A stretch of 64,000 bases of DNA from Roseburia sp. (lineage in GTDB: Bacteria > Bacillota > Clostridia > Lachnospirales > Lachnospiraceae). The position numbers were made by a program, and so were the translations under genes. The DNA lies in NCBI GenBank assembly GCA_026168605.1, contig JAPFDX010000012.1:124001-188000 (forward strand), in the 5' to 3' direction. Each line of letters opens with the position of its first letter. Positions within the stretch are counted from its first letter, which is position 1. This document shows positions 2,037-55,991 of the stretch, piece after piece. Below the pieces are notes generated by a model. The model searched no databases. It was not told the DNA's origin and saw nothing but the letters and a program-made list of their open reading frames with translations.

Positions 2037-3377
2037 GTGACGAAAGATATGACCTCGGGTAATCCCTTAAAAATTATCCTTTTCTTTTCCATTCCGGTTT
2101 TACTCGGAAACCTTTTCCAGCAATTTTATAATATGGTAGATACGATCATCGTCGGCAGATACCTCGGCGAGGAGGCGCTGGCAGCGGTGGGCTCCACGGG
2201 CTGTCTGATGTTCCTTGTCCTGGGCTTTGCGAACGGGATCGCGCAGGGCTTCGGCGTAATGGTTTCCCACGCCTTCGGCGCAAAGGATTTCCCGCTGTTA
2301 AAGCATTATGTCGCACTCTCCCTGATTCTCACGGCGATCGTCTCCGTCATACTGACCGTGCCGACCGTGGCAGCCTCCAGACAGTTTCTGCTCTGGATGA
2401 ACACACCGGAGAATATCCTCTCGATGGCGGATGATTATATCAAAGTGATCTTCGCCGGAATCATTCTGACGATGTTTTACAATGTCCTCTCCGGCATCCT
2501 GCGCGGAATCGGGGACAGCAGGACGCCGCTTTACTTTTTGATCTTTTCATCAGTTTTAAATATTGTGCTGGACGTGTTCCTGATCGTGACCGTAAAACTC
2601 GGCACGGCGGGCGCCGCCTATGCGACGATCATCTCGCAGGGCGTATCGGCGCTGCTCTGCCTCTTTTATATGTTCCGGAAATTTGACATCCTGCGCACCT
2701 CGCGCAAGGATTACTATCTGGACTGGCACGGCATCCGCAATATGCTCGCCATCGGGATCCCGATGGCGCTCAACTATTCGATCACGGCTGTCGGCACGAT
2801 GATCATGCAGAGCGCCGTCAACGTGTTCGGCTCGAGCGTTGTCGCCGCCTTCACCGCCGCATCCAAGGTAAACAACATCGCGACACAGACCATGCCGACG
2901 CTCGGCACAGCGCTCGCCACCTACTGCGGTCAGAACCTCGGCGCAGGAAAATACAAGCGTATCTACGACGGCATGAAGCAGGGCTTTTTCCTCTGCCTTG
3001 CGGCATCTGCCCTCGCTGCAGGGATCTGCATCTTTGGCGGCAGATTTATCGTGAGCTGGTTTGTCAGCAACCCGTCCGAGGAGATCTTCACCTACGCAAT
3101 GCAGTACCTGACCGTCGCAAGCTGGTTTTTCCTGCCGCTTGCAATGATCTTCCTCTACCGCAACGCCCTGCAGGGACTAGGCGAGGGACTCGTTCCGATG
3201 CTCTCCGGCGTGGTTGAGCTCGCCTGCCGTTTCGCTGTGATCGCCTTTGTGCCAAAAAGCGCCGGCTTCTTCGGCGTCTGCTTCGCAGACCCGGCTGCAT
3301 GGGTGGGCGCGGCGATCCCGCTGTTTGTCACCTATCTGCTCTGGAAACGGAAAAATATCCGGATTCATGCGGACTAA
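2037..3377 (+). CDS. MATE-family multidrug/sodium efflux transporter
   Basis: A 446-residue integral membrane exporter of the MATE fold, which expels drugs or metabolites in exchange for Na+ or H+. The length and about 12 hydrophobic segments fit the family. Typical motifs include the first-helix region PLKIILFFSIPVLLGNLFQQ, followed by YNMVDTIIVGRYLG and the repeat-2 stretch GIPMALNYSITAVGTM. The reading frame is open upstream to about 1800, but the start is taken as GTG 2037, which has AGAAGGAGA at good spacing. It is divergent from the LysR gene, which probably regulates it. It is followed by a long perfect stem-loop and then a second terminator shared with the converging SUKH gene. Substrate unknown. 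Confidence 0.93.
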   Translation: MTKDMTSGNPLKIILFFSIPVLLGNLFQQFYNMVDTIIVGRYLGEEALAAVGSTGCLMFLVLGFANGIAQGFGVMVSHAFGAKDFPLLKHYVALSLILTAIVSVILTVPTVAASRQFLLWMNTPENILSMADDYIKVIFAGIILTMFYNVLSGILRGIGDSRTPLYFLIFSSVLNIVLDVFLIVTVKLGTAGAAYATIISQGVSALLCLFYMFRKFDILRTSRKDYYLDWHGIRNMLAIGIPMALNYSITAVGTMIMQSAVNVFGSSVVAAFTAASKVNNIATQTMPTLGTALATYCGQNLGAGKYKRIYDGMKQGFFLCLAASALAAGICIFGGRFIVSWFVSNPSEEIFTYAMQYLTVASWFFLPLAMIFLYRNALQGLGEGLVPMLSGVVELACRFAVIAFVPKSAGFFGVCFADPAAWVGAAIPLFVTYLLWKRKNIRIHAD

Positions 3378-3714: not shown

Positions 3715-4275
3715 TTACAAACAGGAATTTGTCGATTTATCCTCTCCTCGGATTTTCTTGTTTTTCCGTTCTTCTAACTCCGCAATTTGGTTCATCAAAC
3801 AATCTGAAAAAGTTCCTTCAATCGGTGCAGCTTCTCCTGTTGTATAGTAATCAAGAAGGACAATGTTATTATCCTTGTCAAAGCAAAATATTTCATCACC
3901 ATTCCCTATGATAGACAAGAATGGGATAAAATCCGTAAAACCCTCATCGTATAGTTCTTTTGTTTTTTCACGAATATCCAAAAAACCGGGTATTCCGTTG
4001 GCAATTCCATAAACTATAATTCCACGACAGAACGACCAAAATGGACCTATGTCATACTGTTTCGCTCGTGGCCATATTTCTTCCCGAACCTCCATATAAA
4101 GCCCGCCTAATGGAGACATAGTAAATTCTCTAAAATCAGCAGGCAGAGTTATCCCATACTGATTTTCAAAATCCTTTATATCCTGCTCCGATGGCTCATT
4201 TCCCATACAAGCTACAACCTGATAAGTCTGCTTATCATAATTATGGAAATAATCGTAAACTTTTTCCAATGCCAT
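3715..4275 (-). CDS. SMI1/KNR4 (SUKH) domain protein, possible orphan immunity protein
   Basis: A 186-residue soluble protein. The middle part looks like a SUKH (SMI1/KNR4) domain: SEQDIKDFENQYGITLPADFREF (about residues 30-52) is the family's opening helix and IxLPxDF pattern. A later acidic stretch, IGNGDEIFCFD, fits the conserved GDxxxFD. SUKH proteins are often immunity factors for polymorphic or contact-dependent toxins. ATG 4275 is chosen because GGAGGG lies 6 bases upstream; the open frame extends further but without a ribosome site. The gene is AT-rich against its neighbours, suggesting acquisition. No toxin gene is adjacent, so it would be an orphan. Domain call fairly sure; function inferred. 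Confidence 0.75.
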   Translation of the reverse strand: MALEKVYDYFHNYDKQTYQVVACMGNEPSEQDIKDFENQYGITLPADFREFTMSPLGGLYMEVREEIWPRAKQYDIGPFWSFCRGIIVYGIANGIPGFLDIREKTKELYDEGFTDFIPFLSIIGNGDEIFCFDKDNNIVLLDYYTTGEAAPIEGTFSDCLMNQIAELEERKNKKIRGEDKSTNSCL

Positions 4276-4856: not shown

Positions 4857-7727
4857 CTACGCATTATTTCGGTAACCGCACTTCGGGCAGACCGCCCCGC
4901 CCTGATACTCATAGCCGCACCGATAGCAGCAGATCTTCTCATGCCGCTCGCTTGCCAGATACGTAAGACTTCTGGAATCCGGCTTTTCCTGCAGATAATG
5001 GACAAAGGAATCCAGCACTCCGGCGAATGCCTCGAGTTCACTGTGCTCCACCGCGCAGGGAAGCTTCGTCTTCGTGCCGTCCTTCTGGCGCATATACAGA
5101 CCCTTTTTCAAAAATCCGGTACTGCCCTCAATCCCGGCGATCGAGGAGACCGGAACGCCGTATGCGCTCAAAAGCGTACTGTAATACAGATGCTCCGGCG
5201 TGAGGATGATGCCCTCCTTGCCGCTCCCATTGTGCGTCGTATCGGTGACAAAAACCGGATATTCAAACATTCCCCTACCCGCCGCGTAGGATGCGAGTGC
5301 AAATTCGATCAGATCAAGTTCCCTTGGATCCGCCTGATGCAGCAGCGCCCTGCGCGCAGGATAAAAGTAATGTCTCGGATTCTCGGCAATCCCCGCCTCT
5401 GTCATCTCTTCTTTTAATTTCTGCACCAGAAGCTCGCACTCGTCAGTCTTGATCTTTGCAAGACGTTTTGTGAGCTGAGTTAACGCGTCCTGCTTGAGTT
5501 CCGGCAGAAACTCTCCCGCCTGAATCTGCTCATACGCCTTCATCCCATCCTCAAAGGTCATATACATCGGGTTCGGGCAGATCTCGGCGATCGTATCCGC
5601 ATCCGCCTGCCGGATCCGGTCCCTGATCTTTTCCTCATAGGGGAGGACCAGTTCCGGCAGGAAATCCTCGCCGTGCAGGCGTGACAAGAGGTCTTCCAGA
5701 TCTTTGCGGTCCGACTTTCTGGCACGCTTTACCATATCTGCGATCTCATGACGTTCGGCAGACTCCTGACGCTCCCGCAACAGTTCCTCATAGGGGGACA
5801 GATCGACCTCCCCATATCCACGGATGCGCTGCATATACTGTTTGTATTGCTGGCGACTTCTGTGGTCGGGCATCTGGCGGATGAGCTGCTCCACCTCCCG
5901 CTCTGCCTGCTGCGTTTTCTGCACGTCAAGCTTCTCTAAGAGCGGACGCTTGTCATCCTCCGGCACAGCCGCCCGCTTTGCCTCGTCATAAATGCGGCTG
6001 ATCACCGCATAATTCTTCCCTTCTGCCGCTTTGGCGCGCTCCGTAAGTCTCTGTATCTCCTTTTCTATCGCGCGCTCTCTCCGGCGCTGCTCCATCTCCT
6101 GTCTGGGATCTGCCGCCTGACCGCCGTCCTGTCCCCCGGCAAATGTCCGGGACTGCACCGCGTTCTCCTGCTCTCCGGCTTCTCTCCTGCCCTCCGGCTT
6201 CCGGTCTTTCGGATCTCCTTTGTCCGCCCGCGCTTCGGTGGCTTTCCCCGCGCGCCCTGTGTGCTGTCTCTCCACAGACTGTCTCTCCACCGGCTGTCTG
6301 TCCTGGCGGTCTGCCGTTTCCCAGTGCTCTGCGCGCACATCCGGTACGTCTGTGTTCTCTGTATCCTTCCGGCTCGTCCGTCGCTCCTCTGTCAACCGGT
6401 CTTCCTGTGTTCTTCCTCCGGCTGTCTCCTGCGCTGCTTCCCGCCGCTCTGCCCGGATACCGGATTTGTGCAAGCCCCGTTCCGGCGCGCGCCATGTTTT
6501 GCTGCCGGATTCCTGCACGTCACGTTTTGTCTCCCGATCCGCCGGACTCCCGGATCCCCACACGCTGCGCTCAGATGTGTGCTCCCGGTCTTGGGATTGC
6601 ACCTCGTCTCTTGCCGACTTGTGCCCTGCTGTGCCATCGAATTCCGGCGCGCCCGGCTCCTCATATCTGCCGTCACGCACCGCGCGCCGCTCGATCTCAT
6701 GCTCGATTTTGCGGATGCCCGCATCAGAATAAAATCCCTCCTCCATGCGCGCGACAAGCTTTTGCAGCTCGGCGTCCGTAAGCTCGGGCAGGGACGCCGA
6801 CAATTCCTCCAGCGTCTCCTCGGCATCCTCGTCCTCCGTCCTTCTGCCATCCGCGTACTCATTACAATGGCGGTTAGACACACGCTCCCCGGTGCTCCCG
6901 AGCAGTTCGGCATAGTCCTCATACGCCGCCGCATCCTCCCCAAAACGGATGACGTAGACGTCTCCGTCCGCGAACAGCTTTTTCGGGCGCGGCGTGAAAA
7001 AACTGCGGCATTTTGCGCAGGTCGCCGCGCGGGCGATCAGCACGCCGCCCTCCTCCGTCTCGATGCCAAATTCCTTTCCCTCCGGGTAGACGACCATATG
7101 TAAATTTTTCCCACAGTCCGGGCATAGATAGCCCACCATGTAAAAATTGTTGCCCAGCCGCTCCTTCTTCCGCTCCGCCTCCGCGGTATCCACACGCGTA
7201 AACGGCGCGCGCACTTTTTTCCATATGATCTTGCGCCAGAGCCCACCGCCGCGCACCTCCTGCTCCGTCTCCTCCTCATACTCTAAGGCGAGCTGGATTG
7301 CGTCCTCGTAAGTGATGCGCATCCCATTCCGGTAAAACCGCAGATACGAGGGCGTGTATTCCGGCTCCACTCCGTATTCCTGCATGATCCCGGTAAACAA
7401 GCGCTTCAGCTCGCCGTCGCTCTTATCCACCCGCACGCCATTTAACGTTCCCCATTTTCCAAAGGCGTAGAGAATCATGTTGATGGCATTTCGCACGCGC
7501 TGGTTGTCCCCAATCTCCCGGATCTCCTCCTTTTCGGGTATCTCTATGACACTGGCGTACACTTTCCGCGTGTCGAAATGAAAAAACAGGGAGCGCGCTT
7601 CTCCCTGCAATATCATATAATTATCCACAGCCACAAAGATACCGTTCCATCTGACCGGTACCTTCGCCGCCTGAATCAGTTTCTCAAATGTCTGCTGTAA
7701 TTCCGCATTTGCTCTCATTCGTATCAT
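4857..7727 (-). CDS. Large uncharacterised zinc-ribbon protein with charged central linker
   Basis: A 956-residue soluble protein that I do not recognise. Residues about 1-190 form a globular N-domain. A zinc ribbon follows at about 200-245 (CPDCGK ... CAKC). Residues about 300-590 are a low-complexity linker extremely rich in Arg, Glu, Gln and Gly. Residues about 590-780 are helical and charged, probably coiled coil. Residues about 800-925 form a globular C-domain with a stretch (GIILTPEHLYYS ... GIEGS) resembling a small PH-like fold. The extreme C-terminus is a second zinc ribbon (CYRCGYEY ... CPKCGYRN). No signal peptide or membrane segment is seen. ATG 7727 has GGAGG 7 bases upstream. 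It is monocistronic or cotranscribed with the TfoX-N gene, and divergent from htpG. Function unknown. Confidence 0.85.
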   Translation of the reverse strand: MIRMRANAELQQTFEKLIQAAKVPVRWNGIFVAVDNYMILQGEARSLFFHFDTRKVYASVIEIPEKEEIREIGDNQRVRNAINMILYAFGKWGTLNGVRVDKSDGELKRLFTGIMQEYGVEPEYTPSYLRFYRNGMRITYEDAIQLALEYEEETEQEVRGGGLWRKIIWKKVRAPFTRVDTAEAERKKERLGNNFYMVGYLCPDCGKNLHMVVYPEGKEFGIETEEGGVLIARAATCAKCRSFFTPRPKKLFADGDVYVIRFGEDAAAYEDYAELLGSTGERVSNRHCNEYADGRRTEDEDAEETLEELSASLPELTDAELQKLVARMEEGFYSDAGIRKIEHEIERRAVRDGRYEEPGAPEFDGTAGHKSARDEVQSQDREHTSERSVWGSGSPADRETKRDVQESGSKTWRAPERGLHKSGIRAERREAAQETAGGRTQEDRLTEERRTSRKDTENTDVPDVRAEHWETADRQDRQPVERQSVERQHTGRAGKATEARADKGDPKDRKPEGRREAGEQENAVQSRTFAGGQDGGQAADPRQEMEQRRRERAIEKEIQRLTERAKAAEGKNYAVISRIYDEAKRAAVPEDDKRPLLEKLDVQKTQQAEREVEQLIRQMPDHRSRQQYKQYMQRIRGYGEVDLSPYEELLRERQESAERHEIADMVKRARKSDRKDLEDLLSRLHGEDFLPELVLPYEEKIRDRIRQADADTIAEICPNPMYMTFEDGMKAYEQIQAGEFLPELKQDALTQLTKRLAKIKTDECELLVQKLKEEMTEAGIAENPRHYFYPARRALLHQADPRELDLIEFALASYAAGRGMFEYPVFVTDTTHNGSGKEGIILTPEHLYYSTLLSAYGVPVSSIAGIEGSTGFLKKGLYMRQKDGTKTKLPCAVEHSELEAFAGVLDSFVHYLQEKPDSRSLTYLASERHEKICCYRCGYEYQGGAVCPKCGYRNNA

Positions 7728-51355: not shown

Positions 51356-51383
51356 GCAGGAAACAGAATGAATGGAGAATACG

Positions 51384-52100
51384 ATGGAACAGACAAAGAT
51401 CCTGGTTGTGGACGACAACCCGGAAATCCGCGAGATTTTACGCATCCTTTTGGAAAATGAATCCTATGAAGTGACAGAGGCGGGCGACGGCGCCGCCGCG
51501 CTTTTGGCTCTTTCTGCCGAAAGCTTTGACCTCATCATTTTAGATATTATGATGCCGCACTTAGACGGCTACCAGACTTGTTTAAAAATCCGCGAGAGCT
51601 CCAACGCGCCGATCCTCTTTCTGAGCGCCAAGACAAAGGAAAGCGATAAGACACTCGGCTTTTCCAGCGGCGGGGACGACTATCTGGCAAAGCCGTTTTC
51701 CTACAATGAGCTGGTCTCCCGCGCGAAGGCGCTCATCCGCCGCTACCGGATCTATCAGGGCAAGTCTCCGCAGGAGGAAGCTCCCTCACCAAAGCGGGCA
51801 GAGCTTCTCTCCTGCGGAAAACTGACGATCGATCCCACAAAACAGCTTGTCAGCAGGGACGGCGTTCCCTTGGAGCTGACCGATACGGAATACGAAATCC
51901 TCCTGCTGCTTCTGTCGCACCGCGAGCAGATTTTTCCGGCGGCACAGCTCTATGAGGCCGTCTGGAACGAGCCGTACCACTACACGGCAAACAACACGGT
52001 GATGGTCCACATCCGGAATCTGCGGTGCAAGATCGAGGAGGACGCCACCCATCCAAATATCATCAAAACTGTCTGGGGAAAGGGATACCGCTGTGATTAA
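51384..52100 (+). CDS. OmpR-family response regulator (VanR-like)
   Basis: A 238-residue regulator. The receiver has DD (10-11), phospho-acceptor Asp54 in IILDIMMPHLDGYQ, and DDYLAKPF with the conserved Lys. The winged-helix output domain is at about 135-236 (ELTDTEYEILLLLLSHREQIF ... VMVHIRNLRCKIE ... GKGYRCD). ATG 51384 has GGAG upstream; the ATG four codons earlier overlaps that site. The kinase gene overlaps its end by 8 bp. Candidate binding repeats lie upstream, suggesting autoregulation. Confidence 0.94.
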   Translation: MEQTKILVVDDNPEIREILRILLENESYEVTEAGDGAAALLALSAESFDLIILDIMMPHLDGYQTCLKIRESSNAPILFLSAKTKESDKTLGFSSGGDDYLAKPFSYNELVSRAKALIRRYRIYQGKSPQEEAPSPKRAELLSCGKLTIDPTKQLVSRDGVPLELTDTEYEILLLLLSHREQIFPAAQLYEAVWNEPYHYTANNTVMVHIRNLRCKIEEDATHPNIIKTVWGKGYRCD

Positions 52101-53496
52101 ACGTATCAAAACCGCAAAGCTGCGCACAAAATTTATCTCTCTGCTGCTCGTATCAGGGCTGCTCGGGCTCTTTACCTTTTTCTTTCTCCTGCGCCATATC
52201 GGCGAGGCGTGGAACGTTTTCTCCGCGCTTCCTCCCTTCGCGTGGGATGAGGAGGCGCTCGTTGCGGCACTGCGCGAGGAAGCGCCAAACCACACCGTTC
52301 CTGCCTATTCCGCCGGAGAAAACGGTGCCGGACAGATGCAGGGATTTTTTGCGTTGTCCGACGATTACACGGGCGTCTATGTTTACGGAAAAGACGACGG
52401 GCTCTACCGCGCCAGCGCCTTCCCAAAAGTTCTCCACAAAGTCATAAACGGGAGTGTCCTGGACTATGTCTCCTCCCTGACGGAGGAATATATTTTCTCA
52501 CAAGAACACATGGGGGAAGAACACGCCCACTGGTATGATATGGAATTTAAAAACGGCACTTATACCGTTCAGATTCTCTCCTTCCTCTATCTGCGCTTCA
52601 CCTATCCTTACCTTTTCTTCTGCCTGATCTGTGCCACGGCTGTGTTTCTCGCCCCGATGCTGCTCTACCTTAGGAAACGCACCGGACAACTTCTTCTCTT
52701 AAAGGATGAGATGCTCTTAATGTCCTCCGGCGATCTGACGCACCCCGTCGCGCCGTGCGGAGCGGATGAGATCGGTATTCTGTCAAGAGAGCTCGATGAG
52801 CTTCGTCTGGCGCTTCACTCCCACATCACAAGGGAGGAGGAAAGCCGTCAGGCAAATCAGGATCTGATCACCGCGCTCTCCCACGACCTGCGCACACCGC
52901 TGACCATCCTAAAGGGCTACCTCGAGGTCCTGCAGTTAAAGCTGCCGGAATCTGACGCCGCCGCAGAGTACCTCTCCCGCTGCCTGCAAAAGGCGGACGA
53001 CATCCGTGAGCTGACCGACCGTATGTTTGAGTATGCGCTCATCTATGAGGAAAACGAGGAAGTCTCCCCCGCCGCCGTCCCGCTCTCCTTTTTTGAGGAA
53101 TGTATTGCGGAAAATATGGACTTCATCCGCCTTGCAGGCTTTCACACCGCAGAGCCTCCATGCCTGACCGCGTCTCCGTCCCTGACCGGGCGGACAGTCA
53201 ACGGCGACACGGTGATGATCAAGCGCATTTTCAATAATCTCTTTTCCAATATTTTAAAATATGGGGACAAATCCGTGCCCGTCACCATCTCCTGCCACGC
53301 GGGGAAAGATTCCATTTCCTTTACGCTGTGCAATGCCATAAAAACGAGTTTCGCAGGTGAAACTTTCCAGTCCCGGATCGCCGGCAACGGGATTGGTCTT
53401 AGAAGCGTGGAAAAAATGATGGCGCTCCACCACGGCACGCTGAAACAGCGGGAGGAGGACGGACGCTTTTCGGTGGAGATCACCTTTTGCGGGTGA
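52093..53496 (+). CDS. Sensor histidine kinase with extracellular sensor domain
   Basis: A 467-residue kinase. Helix 1 (about 15-35), an extracellular domain (about 36-165) and helix 2 (about 170-195) are followed by a HAMP-like region (about 200-250). The H-box is ITALSHDLRTPLTIL with His264. The ATP-binding part has IFNNLFSNILKYG as N-box and NGIGLRSVEKM as G2. GTG 52093 starts it within the end of the response regulator gene. The 27 bases at 53319-53345, coding TLCNAIKT, recur exactly at 54720-54746, so a recombination event has touched its 3' end. The last 50 codons may therefore be altered from the ancestral gene. Confidence 0.92.
   Translation: MIKRIKTAKLRTKFISLLLVSGLLGLFTFFFLLRHIGEAWNVFSALPPFAWDEEALVAALREEAPNHTVPAYSAGENGAGQMQGFFALSDDYTGVYVYGKDDGLYRASAFPKVLHKVINGSVLDYVSSLTEEYIFSQEHMGEEHAHWYDMEFKNGTYTVQILSFLYLRFTYPYLFFCLICATAVFLAPMLLYLRKRTGQLLLLKDEMLLMSSGDLTHPVAPCGADEIGILSRELDELRLALHSHITREEESRQANQDLITALSHDLRTPLTILKGYLEVLQLKLPESDAAAEYLSRCLQKADDIRELTDRMFEYALIYEENEEVSPAAVPLSFFEECIAENMDFIRLAGFHTAEPPCLTASPSLTGRTVNGDTVMIKRIFNNLFSNILKYGDKSVPVTISCHAGKDSISFTLCNAIKTSFAGETFQSRIAGNGIGLRSVEKMMALHHGTLKQREEDGRFSVEITFCG
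53319..53345 (+). repeat. 27-bp exact direct repeat, left copy (inside the histidine kinase gene)
   Basis: Begins CTTTACGCTGTGCAATGCC and ends ATAAAAAC. It is identical to 54720-54746; the bases on either side differ. The two copies are 1401 bp apart and bracket an AT-rich segment. Confidence 0.95.
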
Positions 53497-53514
53497 AATA
53501 TCTCGTATTTCTCC

Positions 53515-53567
53515 GGAGTTATGTAAGTATACTATTTAAATTTTGCAGGAGTTATATAAGTATATTA
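53515..53567 (+). repeat. Tandem-like 20-bp repeat pair
   Basis: GGAGTTATGTAAGTATACTA (53515-53534) and GGAGTTATATAAGTATATTA (53548-53567) agree at all but two positions and are 33 bp apart. The second copy lies inside the predicted promoter at 53543-53571. Confidence 0.8.
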
Positions 53568-53571
53568 TAAT
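53543..53571 (+). promoter_or_regulatory. Plus-strand promoter facing the membrane-protein gene
   Basis: TTGCAG (53543-53548), a 17-bp spacer and TATAAT (53566-53571). No gene with a good ribosome site follows on the plus strand; the transcript would run about 85 bases to the hairpin at 53625-53661. It could make a small RNA convergent with the minus-strand operon. Confidence 0.6.
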
Positions 53572-53624
53572 AACGGTCGCGCAAAAGTGTAAGAGGGATG
53601 AGTAACAATCCCTATACAACAGAA

Positions 53625-53661
53625 AAGGCGGTGGGGATAGTTAATACACCCCCGCCGCCTT
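53625..53661. terminator. Bidirectional terminator of the AT-rich island
   Basis: AAGGCGGTGGGG (53625-53636) pairs with 53650-53661 over 12 bp with one wobble around a 13-base loop. TTTTC follows on the minus strand, ACTTTCTTTATT on the plus strand. It lies 25 bp past the stop of the 57-codon gene. Confidence 0.8.
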
Positions 53662-53686
53662 ACTTTCTTTATTGACTAATATAAGT

Positions 53687-53860
53687 CTATTTTTTTTTAG
53701 ATATTTTATAAATGCCTAAAATAAGCGAAAAACATCCTAGTAAACCAATAATAACTCTCCACACTATGCCAGAAATTCCTAACATCATCGGAAATGGGCA
53801 TATCACGGTAACCATAAGAACAATCAATCCTACAACAATAAATAATATATTTTTTATCAT
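53687..53860 (-). CDS. 57-residue two-helix membrane protein
   Basis: A short frame from ATG 53860 to TAG 53687. GTGAGG precedes the start. The peptide is strongly hydrophobic with two predicted membrane helices (about 4-22 and 28-50) and a basic tail KISKKK, which suggests an in-out-in hairpin. It starts 16 bp after the stop of the secreted-protein gene, so the two form an operon with a shared terminator. I recognise no family. A partner or immunity role toward the secreted protein is possible from arrangement only. Confidence 0.75.
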   Translation of the reverse strand: MIKNILFIVVGLIVLMVTVICPFPMMLGISGIVWRVIIGLLGCFSLILGIYKISKKK

Positions 53861-53876
53861 AATACCTCACATATTT

Positions 53877-54530
53877 TTAGTTGACAGTTATATTTATCGT
53901 AGGGGAATTGAGAGTTTCATCAAAAGAAGCACCAACCGGGAATCCCCAAATGTCCAATCCGATAAACCATGTTCCCGTTACCGAAAATTTCGCTGACGTC
54001 CCACCAAGAGGAGTGCCCGATCCTCTCCTATGTGTCCATGTTGCACCAACAATACCTGTCATATACGAATCTTGAACTGTGATATTTGATATTTCACCAT
54101 TACTATAATAATGTCTAATCATTGCATTTGTAAGTGAGAGCAAACTAGTGTTTCCGCCACCCCACCAATCAACAGTACCTTCTTTCCATCCGTTACTTGC
54201 CCTAGTTAGATTCAAACTATGAGTTTCGCTAACAAGGGTTGATTCCATAGCTTGTCTAAACTCTTGCCGTTCTGCAAACAGTTGCTGGAAATACATCTCC
54301 ACTTCTTCTACAGAATCAAATTTCAATAAATCATTATTACTTGACCTTGTAGTTGGCAGTTCTGTGAACGTAACATCAACACCAAAGTCAACAGAATTCA
54401 AATATGCAACTAACTCGCTTGAAGTCATCTCTGAATCGGGAATTGTAGCGTTTGTAGCAGCAAATGCGGTAGTTCCCGTACATACGCAAATAACAAGTGA
54501 CAAGAGAAATGCTATAGATTTTTTTAACAT
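53877..54530 (-). CDS. Secreted protein of unknown function (217 residues)
   Basis: A predicted exported protein. The signal peptide (about 1-25) is MLKKSIAFLLSLVICVCTGT followed by TAFA, a good signal peptidase I site. The mature part has no Cys. Residues about 30-105 are acidic and helical; residues about 120-217 are rich in Gly, Trp, Thr and Ser and should be beta-strand (WKEGTVDWWGGG, GATWTHRRGSGTPLGG, TGTWFIGLDIWGFP). I recognise no family. ATG 54530 has AAAGGAG at good spacing; the longer frame has none. The gene is AT-rich, with promoter and leader ORF upstream and a small membrane protein gene downstream. A bacteriocin-like or surface role is speculation. Confidence 0.85.
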   Translation of the reverse strand: MLKKSIAFLLSLVICVCTGTTAFAATNATIPDSEMTSSELVAYLNSVDFGVDVTFTELPTTRSSNNDLLKFDSVEEVEMYFQQLFAERQEFRQAMESTLVSETHSLNLTRASNGWKEGTVDWWGGGNTSLLSLTNAMIRHYYSNGEISNITVQDSYMTGIVGATWTHRRGSGTPLGGTSAKFSVTGTWFIGLDIWGFPVGASFDETLNSPTINITVN

Positions 54531-54590
54531 AATTTTGCTCCTTTCAATCAATTCCTTAGTTGCCATTAAGAACGCTAAATGTAAAACGAG

Positions 54591-54617
54591 TTAACATACC
54601 AAAATGAACAGCCCCAT
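54591..54617 (-). CDS. 8-codon leader peptide ORF
   Basis: ATG at 54617 opens MGLFILVC and stops at TAA 54591. Its ribosome site GTAGGAGGTG with 8-base spacing is stronger than that of the gene it precedes. It lies between the promoter at 54650-54678 and the secreted-protein start, 60 bp upstream of the latter. Such leaders can couple or attenuate expression, but no competing hairpins were confirmed. Confidence 0.5.
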   Translation of the reverse strand: MGLFILVC

Positions 54618-54649
54618 CGCAAACACCTCCTACGTTTATAATTTTGTAT

Positions 54650-54678
54650 ATTCTATCACATAAAATCTGTAAAATCAA
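54650..54678 (-). promoter_or_regulatory. Promoter of the secreted-protein operon
   Basis: On the minus strand TTGATT (54673-54678), a 17-bp spacer and TAGAAT (54650-54655). It lies inside the repeat-bracketed segment, so the island carries its own promoter. Confidence 0.7.
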
Positions 54679-54719
54679 GACTAACCTTATGCATCTTTCC
54701 TATTCAGACTGTCAAGGCT

Positions 54720-54746
54720 CTTTACGCTGTGCAATGCCATAAAAAC
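54720..54746 (+). repeat. 27-bp exact direct repeat, right copy (at the dnaJ terminator)
   Basis: Identical to 53319-53345. On the minus strand its first bases GTTTTTATGG supply the U-tract of the dnaJ terminator, so the junction lies exactly at the end of the dnaJ transcript. Confidence 0.95.
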
Positions 54747-54790
54747 AGAGCGCTGCTTCCGCCGATGATCCATCTGCGAAAACAGCGCTC
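54741..54790 (-). terminator. dnaJ operon terminator
   Basis: On the minus strand GAGCGCTG and CAGCGCTC pair perfectly around a 27-base loop, followed by TGTTTTT. It lies 20 bp after the dnaJ stop. Confidence 0.8.
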
Positions 54791-54809: not shown

Positions 54810-55991
54810 CTATATATCGTCCAATGATTCTTTTAATTTATCCATAAACCCTTTTCTCTTCTTCGGCTTCTCTCCGCCGTGCGCCGCGCGCTCACTTCCG
54901 CCTTTATTCAGGGAGTTGCCCGTGAGTTCATCAAACCTGCGCAGCAGATCTTTCGCCTCCGCGTTCAGGTTCGTCGGGGTCTTGATGATCAGCGTCACCA
55001 TATGGTCGCCGCGCACCGTTCCCTTGCTCTGGAGCGTCGGTACGCCCTTGCCCTTCAGCCGGATGGTCGTGTGCGTCTTGGTGCCCGGCTTCACCTCATA
55101 AATGACGTCGCCGTCCACCGTTGCGATCCGGATCTCGCCGCCAAGCGCCGCCTGCGCATAGGAAATCTCCGCTGTGGAATAGATATCCCTATCCTGACGC
55201 TGTAAAAACGGGTGTCTGGATACGGAAACCTCCACCAGAAGATCGCCTCTTGGTCCGCCGTTTGTGCCCGGCTCGCCCTTGTCGCGGATGCGGATACTCT
55301 GACCGTTGTCAATTCCCGCCGGAATGGAAACCTGTATCTTTTTCTTGCTCGCGATATAGCCGCTGCCACGGCAGTCCGAACATTTCTCACGGACGATCTT
55401 TCCGCTGCCGTGACACTCCGGACAAGTCTGCACATTCTGTACCGTCCCAAAGAAAGACTGCTGTGTATACACAACCTTGCCCTTGCCGCCGCACTTACTA
55501 CAGGTCTCCGGCGTCGTACCCGGCTTTGCGCCCGTGCCGTGGCAGGTCTTACACTCATCTTTTAAGACGACCTCGATCTCCTTCTCACAGCCGAACACCG
55601 CCTCCTCAAAGGTGATGCGCACACTGCTCCTGACATTCGCCCCCTTCATCGGGCCGTCATTTCTCCTTCTGCTGCCGCCGCCGAAGAAATCACCAAAAAT
55701 GTCGCCAAAAATATCGCCCATGTCCATGCCGGAAAAGTCAAAGCCACCTGCGCCTCCCGTACCGTCAAATGCCGCATGGCCAAACTGGTCGTACTGCTTT
55801 CTCTTGTCCGGATCGCTCAAAACCGCATATGCTTCCTGCGCTTCCTTAAATTTCTCTTCACATTCTTTATCTCCCGGGTGCATATCCGGATGGTACTTTT
55901 TGGCAAGGACACGGAATGCCTTTTTGATATCCGCGTCGGACGCGGTCTTGCTTACGCCCAAGACCTCATAATAATCTCTCTTGTCTGCCAT
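54810..55991 (-). CDS. dnaJ: Chaperone protein DnaJ (Hsp40)
   Basis: A 393-residue co-chaperone that stimulates DnaK. The J-domain (1-70) has YHPDMHPGD with the essential HPD. A Gly/Phe-rich region (about 75-110) follows. The zinc domain has four CxxCxGxG repeats ([32 protein letters not shown]; about 150-215). The C-terminal substrate-binding domains complete it. It is last in the hrcA-grpE-dnaK-dnaJ operon, 86 bp after dnaK, with a long stem-loop in that gap and a terminator beyond. AGGAATTGTT precedes the ATG. Confidence 0.97.

Follow-up and report, generated by a model that had tools for sequence, protein, structure and literature searches.

A short copy of kinase DNA at the junction of an AT-rich islet beside dnaJ in Roseburia sp.

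Between a sensor histidine kinase gene and dnaJ, a draft genome of Roseburia sp. carries a small AT-rich pair of genes bracketed by a 27-bp exact direct repeat, and the question raised by this locus is whether such a repeat marks the two ends of a mobile element or was left behind by some other event. Here, we analyze it within a stretch of 64,000 nucleotides (the window; NCBI GenBank assembly GCA_026168605.1, contig JAPFDX010000012.1, positions 124,001 to 188,000 of the forward strand), to which all coordinates refer unless another locus is named. The answer that we favor, and regard as somewhat probable, is that the islet was acquired and that a short stretch of DNA templated by the kinase gene filled its right junction. 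The repeat copy at this junction is probably without present function, and it looks like a scar of joining rather than the end of an active element or part of a working mobile element.

Extent and origin of the repeat

The repeat, CTTTACGCTGTGCAATGCCATAAAAAC, is found on the plus strand at 53319-53345 (copy 1) and 54720-54746 (copy 2), with 27 of 27 positions identical and a spacing of 1401, as the first-pass annotation of this DNA had reported. Local alignment of both surroundings does not extend it beyond 27 bp. It is the longest exact direct repeat of the window, the runner-up measuring 16 bp, and in 40 simulated windows (first-order Markov) the longest such repeat reached 14 to 18 bp. A chance match, already called not credible by the first-pass annotation, is ruled out by these simulations and by the 16-bp runner-up. 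The own genome (G000, a 2.73-Mb draft of 50 contigs with the locus inside a 310-kb contig) holds two matches to the first 25 bases at up to 3 mismatches. At the same tolerance, none of the 396 other genomes in a 397-genome family sample matches the 27-mer, and viral_contigs contains no exact match, which together rule out a dispersed element.

Copy 1 lies in frame within the coding sequence of the histidine kinase (52093..53496, plus strand; HisKA and HATPase_c, 467 residues), about 50 codons ahead of the stop, and encodes the residues FTLCNAIKT. The gene is open to its stop, conserved GNGIGL region included, and adjoins a YfhO-type gene and a response regulator (51372..52100, plus strand; Response_reg and Trans_reg_C) that is its probable partner. 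Clear orthologs of the kinase occur in 9 of the 61 other genomes of the genus, which were searched as one set of 35 genomes (orthologs in G006, G020, and G015) and one of 26 (G065, G072, G080, G083, G084, and G085). The same response regulator stands beside the kinase in all nine regions and a YfhO-type membrane protein in eight; in the remaining one (L088), the contig ends soon past the regulator. Because orthologs have matching codons at the repeat site, L087 and L089 for instance carrying AATGCCATAAAA with the codons AAT GCC ATA AAA, we consider the kinase copy to be the original and copy 2 a derived duplicate of kinase DNA. The stretch that follows copy 1 (53346-53496) is the kinase's own 3' end and aligns to the nine orthologs, ruling out that it belongs to the insert. 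A kinase query against genome_contigs gave no match.

Directly behind the repeat, approximately 18 nt or six residues (within KTSFAGETFQSRI, 53346-53375) are absent from all nine orthologs of the genus, and these extra bases contain the inverted repeat AGTTTC-GCAGGT-GAAACT. A reciprocal exchange between them and the terminator loop was rejected, as the sole match measures 11 nt at 91% (E 3.2) and is at chance level.

The cassette and its junction with dnaJ

Behind the kinase 3' end follows the two-gene content described by the first-pass annotation, AT-richer DNA with one gene for a secreted protein and another for a tiny membrane protein. This AT-rich DNA spans 1.2 kb from the kinase stop to copy 2, with a G+C content of 32% at 53497-53624, 28% in the small gene, 39% in the secreted-protein gene, and 34% at 54531-54719, compared with 54% in the kinase and 55% in dnaJ. 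Most of it is a single foreign transcription unit, about 1.09 kb long (53625..54717, minus strand), delimited by DNA identity to a locus (L095) of UC5.1-1D2 and referred to here as the cassette. In the direction of transcription it comprises a promoter-like site (54650..54678; TTGATT, 17 nt, TG before TAGAAT), a gene for a 217-residue protein with an N-terminal hydrophobic signal-like stretch (53877..54530), a gene for a 57-residue hydrophobic membrane protein (53687..53860), and a terminator-like hairpin (53625..53661) that folds well on both strands and is conserved in UC5.1-1D2. The promoter-like site lies in the stretch alignable to that locus. The island had been credited with promoters of its own; such sites are present but are consensus matches only, 7 being found versus 4.9 expected in shuffled sequence.

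The match to UC5.1-1D2 spans promoter region, both genes, and terminator, with 93% DNA identity over 53625-54301 and 74% over 54608-54717. Between the matched parts, UC5.1-1D2 has lost a segment, and with it residues 1 to 76 of the secreted protein. Its remaining frame (5992-6426 of that locus) starts at about residue 77, right behind the cassette leader, and the signal sequence is missing.

On the left, this homology ends with the terminator hairpin at 53625, and on the right it ends at 54717, 2 nt short of copy 2, which therefore marks the junction between the island and the dnaJ terminator. The last eight bases of copy 2, ATAAAAAC, double as the T-tract of that terminator, a hairpin at 54748..54790 on the minus strand; the 101-nt stretch at copy 2 and the terminator folds at -40.7 kcal/mol (z -4.3). 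Beyond it lies dnaJ (54810..55991, minus strand), behind dnaK, grpE, and hrcA (names assigned by eye from translations). The overlap of ATAAAAAC with the T-tract suggests microhomology at the join, and in having a short copy of nearby kinase DNA exactly at the junction of cassette and terminator the locus fits a templated insertion. Copy 1, in turn, sits 279 bp outside the left edge of the cassette.

Distribution of the cassette

Among 62 genomes of the genus, 30 of them at least 90% complete, the secreted protein is found in one, which is the own genome. Likewise, the family sample yields a strong match only in the own genome, besides two weak and partial ones (E 2e-4 and 9e-4, 26-33% identity). 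A scan of genome_contigs (84,980 species) recovers two loci, that of UC5.1-1D2 and one of Pseudobutyrivibrio MAG22 (L096), and a profile search of a phylum sample (398 genomes) adds one other strong match in G804 (L131; E 1e-77) along with five weak ones (E 3e-4 to 0.007). The settings of these three relatives are unrelated: in UC5.1-1D2 the neighbors are an AAA ATPase gene and a frame that partially matches DUF1848, in MAG22 they are a capA-like gene and a gene with a RelA/SpoT domain, and in G804 the relative lies behind a putative lgt frame (by eye) and a tRNA-Arg gene. Since the protein is restricted to 1 of 62 genus genomes, the DNA is AT-rich, and its relatives occupy three unrelated loci, the island is very probably an insertion, as judged from sequence comparison.

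The small membrane partner has homologs in UC5.1-1D2 (89%) and MAG22 (43%). None was detected in G804, where the next gene on the same strand encodes a 102-residue hydrophobic protein without detectable similarity to the 57-residue one. In the G804 locus, we also observe the tRNA-Arg gene (983-1060) ahead of the secreted-protein relative and, downstream of it, what by eye resembles a group II intron, a likely insertion hot spot.

Neither gene of the island matches Pfam or NCBIfam at E <= 1, and a search of solved structures by sequence returned nothing below E 0.7. The secreted protein was also considered as a lactococcin 972-type bacteriocin, which the same Pfam and NCBIfam result does not support. 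One of three aligned members of its family shows a weak NCBIfam match to NF053819 (LPXTG surface protein; E 0.045). Three Rfam matches on the island are all far under gathering scores. Searches of plasmids, phages, and viral contigs for a mobile-element or phage origin gave no match, and the PHROGs families returned only a weak pair, at E 0.034 and 0.0013, neither with an assigned function. The pair of secreted and membrane protein is not named in the family libraries searched and appears to be horizontally spread.

Two smaller features accompany the cassette. Between it and the kinase stop lie 128 bp (53497..53624, 32% G+C) that contain two AT-rich 29-nt near-repeats (83%) at 53507-53568; neither the 62 genus genomes nor the UC5.1-1D2 alignment offers a convincing match to this segment. 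In the gap that separates the secreted-protein gene from the promoter-like site, a tiny minus-strand open reading frame (ORF) encodes MGLFILVC (54591-54617) behind AGGAGGTG.

The kinase and dnaJ neighborhoods in relatives

A dnaJ match is present in 60 other genomes of the genus. In the loci of the best 29 of these 60, the DNA directly behind dnaJ is unlike that of the window in every case, and no kinase of the same family as the one in the window occurs within at most 1.5 kb behind the gene (0.7 kb in L038). Conversely, dnaJ is absent from the nine kinase-ortholog regions, which reach from approximately 12 kb down to 0.36 kb (L090) behind the kinase. The adjacency of kinase and dnaJ is thus itself unusual among the relatives seen, with the cassette sitting at that breakpoint. 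The first-pass annotation had named strains with the kinase directly beside dnaJ and a single repeat copy as the support to look for, and no such relative is found among the 29 dnaJ loci and nine kinase regions, a set that has no strains of the same species. The opposite outcome, an arrangement common to all relatives, is not observed either.

In the closest genome by DnaJ (G073; locus L094, G073:C57), a coiled-coil protein gene lies directly behind dnaJ. Several relatives of the genus carry what seems, by eye, to be the same gene after dnaJ; it is not at that place in the window.

Bracketing repeats at the other cassette loci

The related cassette of MAG22 has a direct repeat on either side, exact over 30 bp (3022-3051 and 4056-4085 of that locus; 36 of 39 positions identical with flanks), which differs in sequence from the window's 27-mer. 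This repeat is a palindromic hairpin. One copy takes in the final codons and the stop of the RelA/SpoT-domain gene, and the other the corresponding end of the capA-like gene. Whereas the 28 relatives with a listed locus have a RelA/SpoT-domain protein of 230-239 residues, that of MAG22 has 215 and is without their C-terminal tail. All 28 have other DNA after the gene, in 20 of them the start of a UppP-like frame (by eye, 140 nt). An empty site was not seen among these 28 other RelA/SpoT-gene loci, nor was capA found in 15 regions of MAG22's genus. The UC5.1-1D2 locus has no exact bracketing repeat of at least 14 bp; an 18-nt repeat at 83% (5753-5770 and 6691-6708) brackets its cassette at chance level, with others there as good. 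The sole bracketing repeat in G804 is 14 nt long, A/T-only, and approximately 11 kb apart. Long exact bracketing repeats therefore accompany 2 of the 4 known insertions, the window included, with unrelated sequences and, in the window, a left copy off the cassette edge.

Origin of the second copy

How, then, might copy 2 have arisen? A complete foreign transcription unit would have been acquired where the kinase locus meets the dnaJ locus. While its right end joined the dnaJ terminator, 19 to 27 nt of nearby kinase DNA may have been copied into the junction, with the kinase's ATAAAAAC pairing at the terminator T-tract. The route could be illegitimate joining by template switching or the capture of a short single strand. 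Several observations weigh against this proposal. The left junction is not pinned, the 128 bp beside it being without a convincing match, and the left end of copy 2 shows little or no microhomology. Neither an empty site nor an intermediate appears in the 29 dnaJ loci or nine kinase regions, and we infer the order of events. Identical bases would also be left by a duplication followed by a deletion. In addition, the 30-bp bracket in MAG22 hints at a process more regular than a one-off filler.

The main rival builds on such a duplication: a segment reaching from the kinase to the right edge of the cassette would have been doubled in tandem, and a deletion running from ATAAAAAC to the dnaJ terminator T-tract would have removed all but 27 bp of the second unit. 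The repeat spacing of 1401 equals one such unit, and the right end falls within ATAAAAAC beside the terminator stem. However, two events are required, and local alignment reveals no further remnant of a second unit around copy 2. We regard this course as rather unlikely, if a serious contender. We find it improbable that the copies are target-site duplications or attachment (att) sites of an excisable mobile element. It is true that direct repeats bracket AT-rich foreign genes here, that MAG22 has its 30-bp bracket, and that UC5.1-1D2 has an 18-nt one, though chance-level repeats there equal it. Yet the two copies are not the ends of one element, because copy 1 lies 279 bp from the left edge of the cassette, in a kinase that is open to its stop and has the 3' end of its family. 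The MAG22 bracket is of another sequence, UC5.1-1D2 has no exact bracketing repeat of at least 14 bp, and G804 has only the 14-nt A/T-only one. No recombinase was recognized between the copies, where the family searches covered the two island genes. Site-specific excision is unlikely given this lack of a recognized recombinase, the wrong left edge, and a site that is not shared. Of the first-pass reading of the repeat as a footprint of insertion or of duplication of the kinase 3' end, the very probable insertion and the kinase-derived copy stand, and the role of the repeats as ends of an excisable element is not supported. It also predicted a truncated kinase if the copies recombine, and on paper this is correct: past copy 2 the frame reads TERCFRR and then a stop, and the kinase would be without its last 49 residues.

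Two further explanations have little to recommend them. An assembly artifact joining the kinase and dnaJ regions might be suspected in a draft of 50 contigs with an adjacency not seen in genus relatives, but the junction lies inside a 310-kb contig, the cassette has its promoter region and terminator in place, and 27 bp is short for a misjoin; we hold it very improbable. The faintest prospect is a functional antisense or decoy role, in which RNA reading through from dnaJ would include 27 nt able to pair with the kinase mRNA. In this orientation all 27 bases are complementary, but little RNA should contain copy 2, since by its fold the terminator should stop transcription within the first bases of the repeat and the promoter-like site of the cassette lies downstream of copy 2; the 27-mer is also missing from the other 396 genomes of the family sample. 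Finally, with the parallel in MAG22 in mind, the cassette family might have a repeatable way of entering at transcription terminators, one that leaves 27- to 30-bp direct repeats from the 3' region of a flanking gene, as passive cargo moved by a trans-acting enzyme or a host joining pathway. This seems to us distinctly doubtful; if the parallel held more widely, it would point to an undescribed route of spread for genes without a recombinase of their own.

Comparison with known systems

In a transposon or insertion sequence with target-site duplication, both copies would adjoin the element; here, only 2 nt separate the right copy from the cassette, but 279 bp the left copy, and neither gene lying between them has any Pfam or NCBIfam match at E <= 1, to a transposase or recombinase or otherwise. 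The locus is also unlike an integrase-type island in that no common att core is seen: at up to 3 mismatches the 27-mer is absent from the 396 further genomes of the family sample, and the MAG22 bracket is different. Homology-facilitated illegitimate recombination brings in foreign DNA with one microhomologous join and a homologous anchor on the other side; such an anchor was not found at the window locus.

Genomic islets at variable intergenic sites are AT-rich, patchy, and without recognized recombination genes, and the window's gene pair resembles them in each of these respects. It differs in bearing a scar that names the flanking gene which supplied the junction DNA. This scar allows us to read how a small foreign gene pair joined the chromosome and which neighbor gave the filler. 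In short-patch double illegitimate recombination (SPDIR), known from work on Acinetobacter, a patch of some tens of bases, copied from the same genome, is inserted at another site, with one end showing microhomology. As in SPDIR and short templated insertions, the window has a few tens of bases from the same genome at a new site, with putative microhomology at one end; unlike in SPDIR, the patch borders a foreign cassette that was inserted, and the mechanism here would be conjectural. In the literature searched, as far as listings and abstract openings go, no bacterial case of exactly this kind was found. Microhomology-mediated break-induced replication, or template switching, is described for human copy-number change (PMC2621351) and shares with our locus a short copied segment and a putative microhomology junction; a process of this type may have acted here. 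We take the scar for a clear example of a presumably known kind of event.

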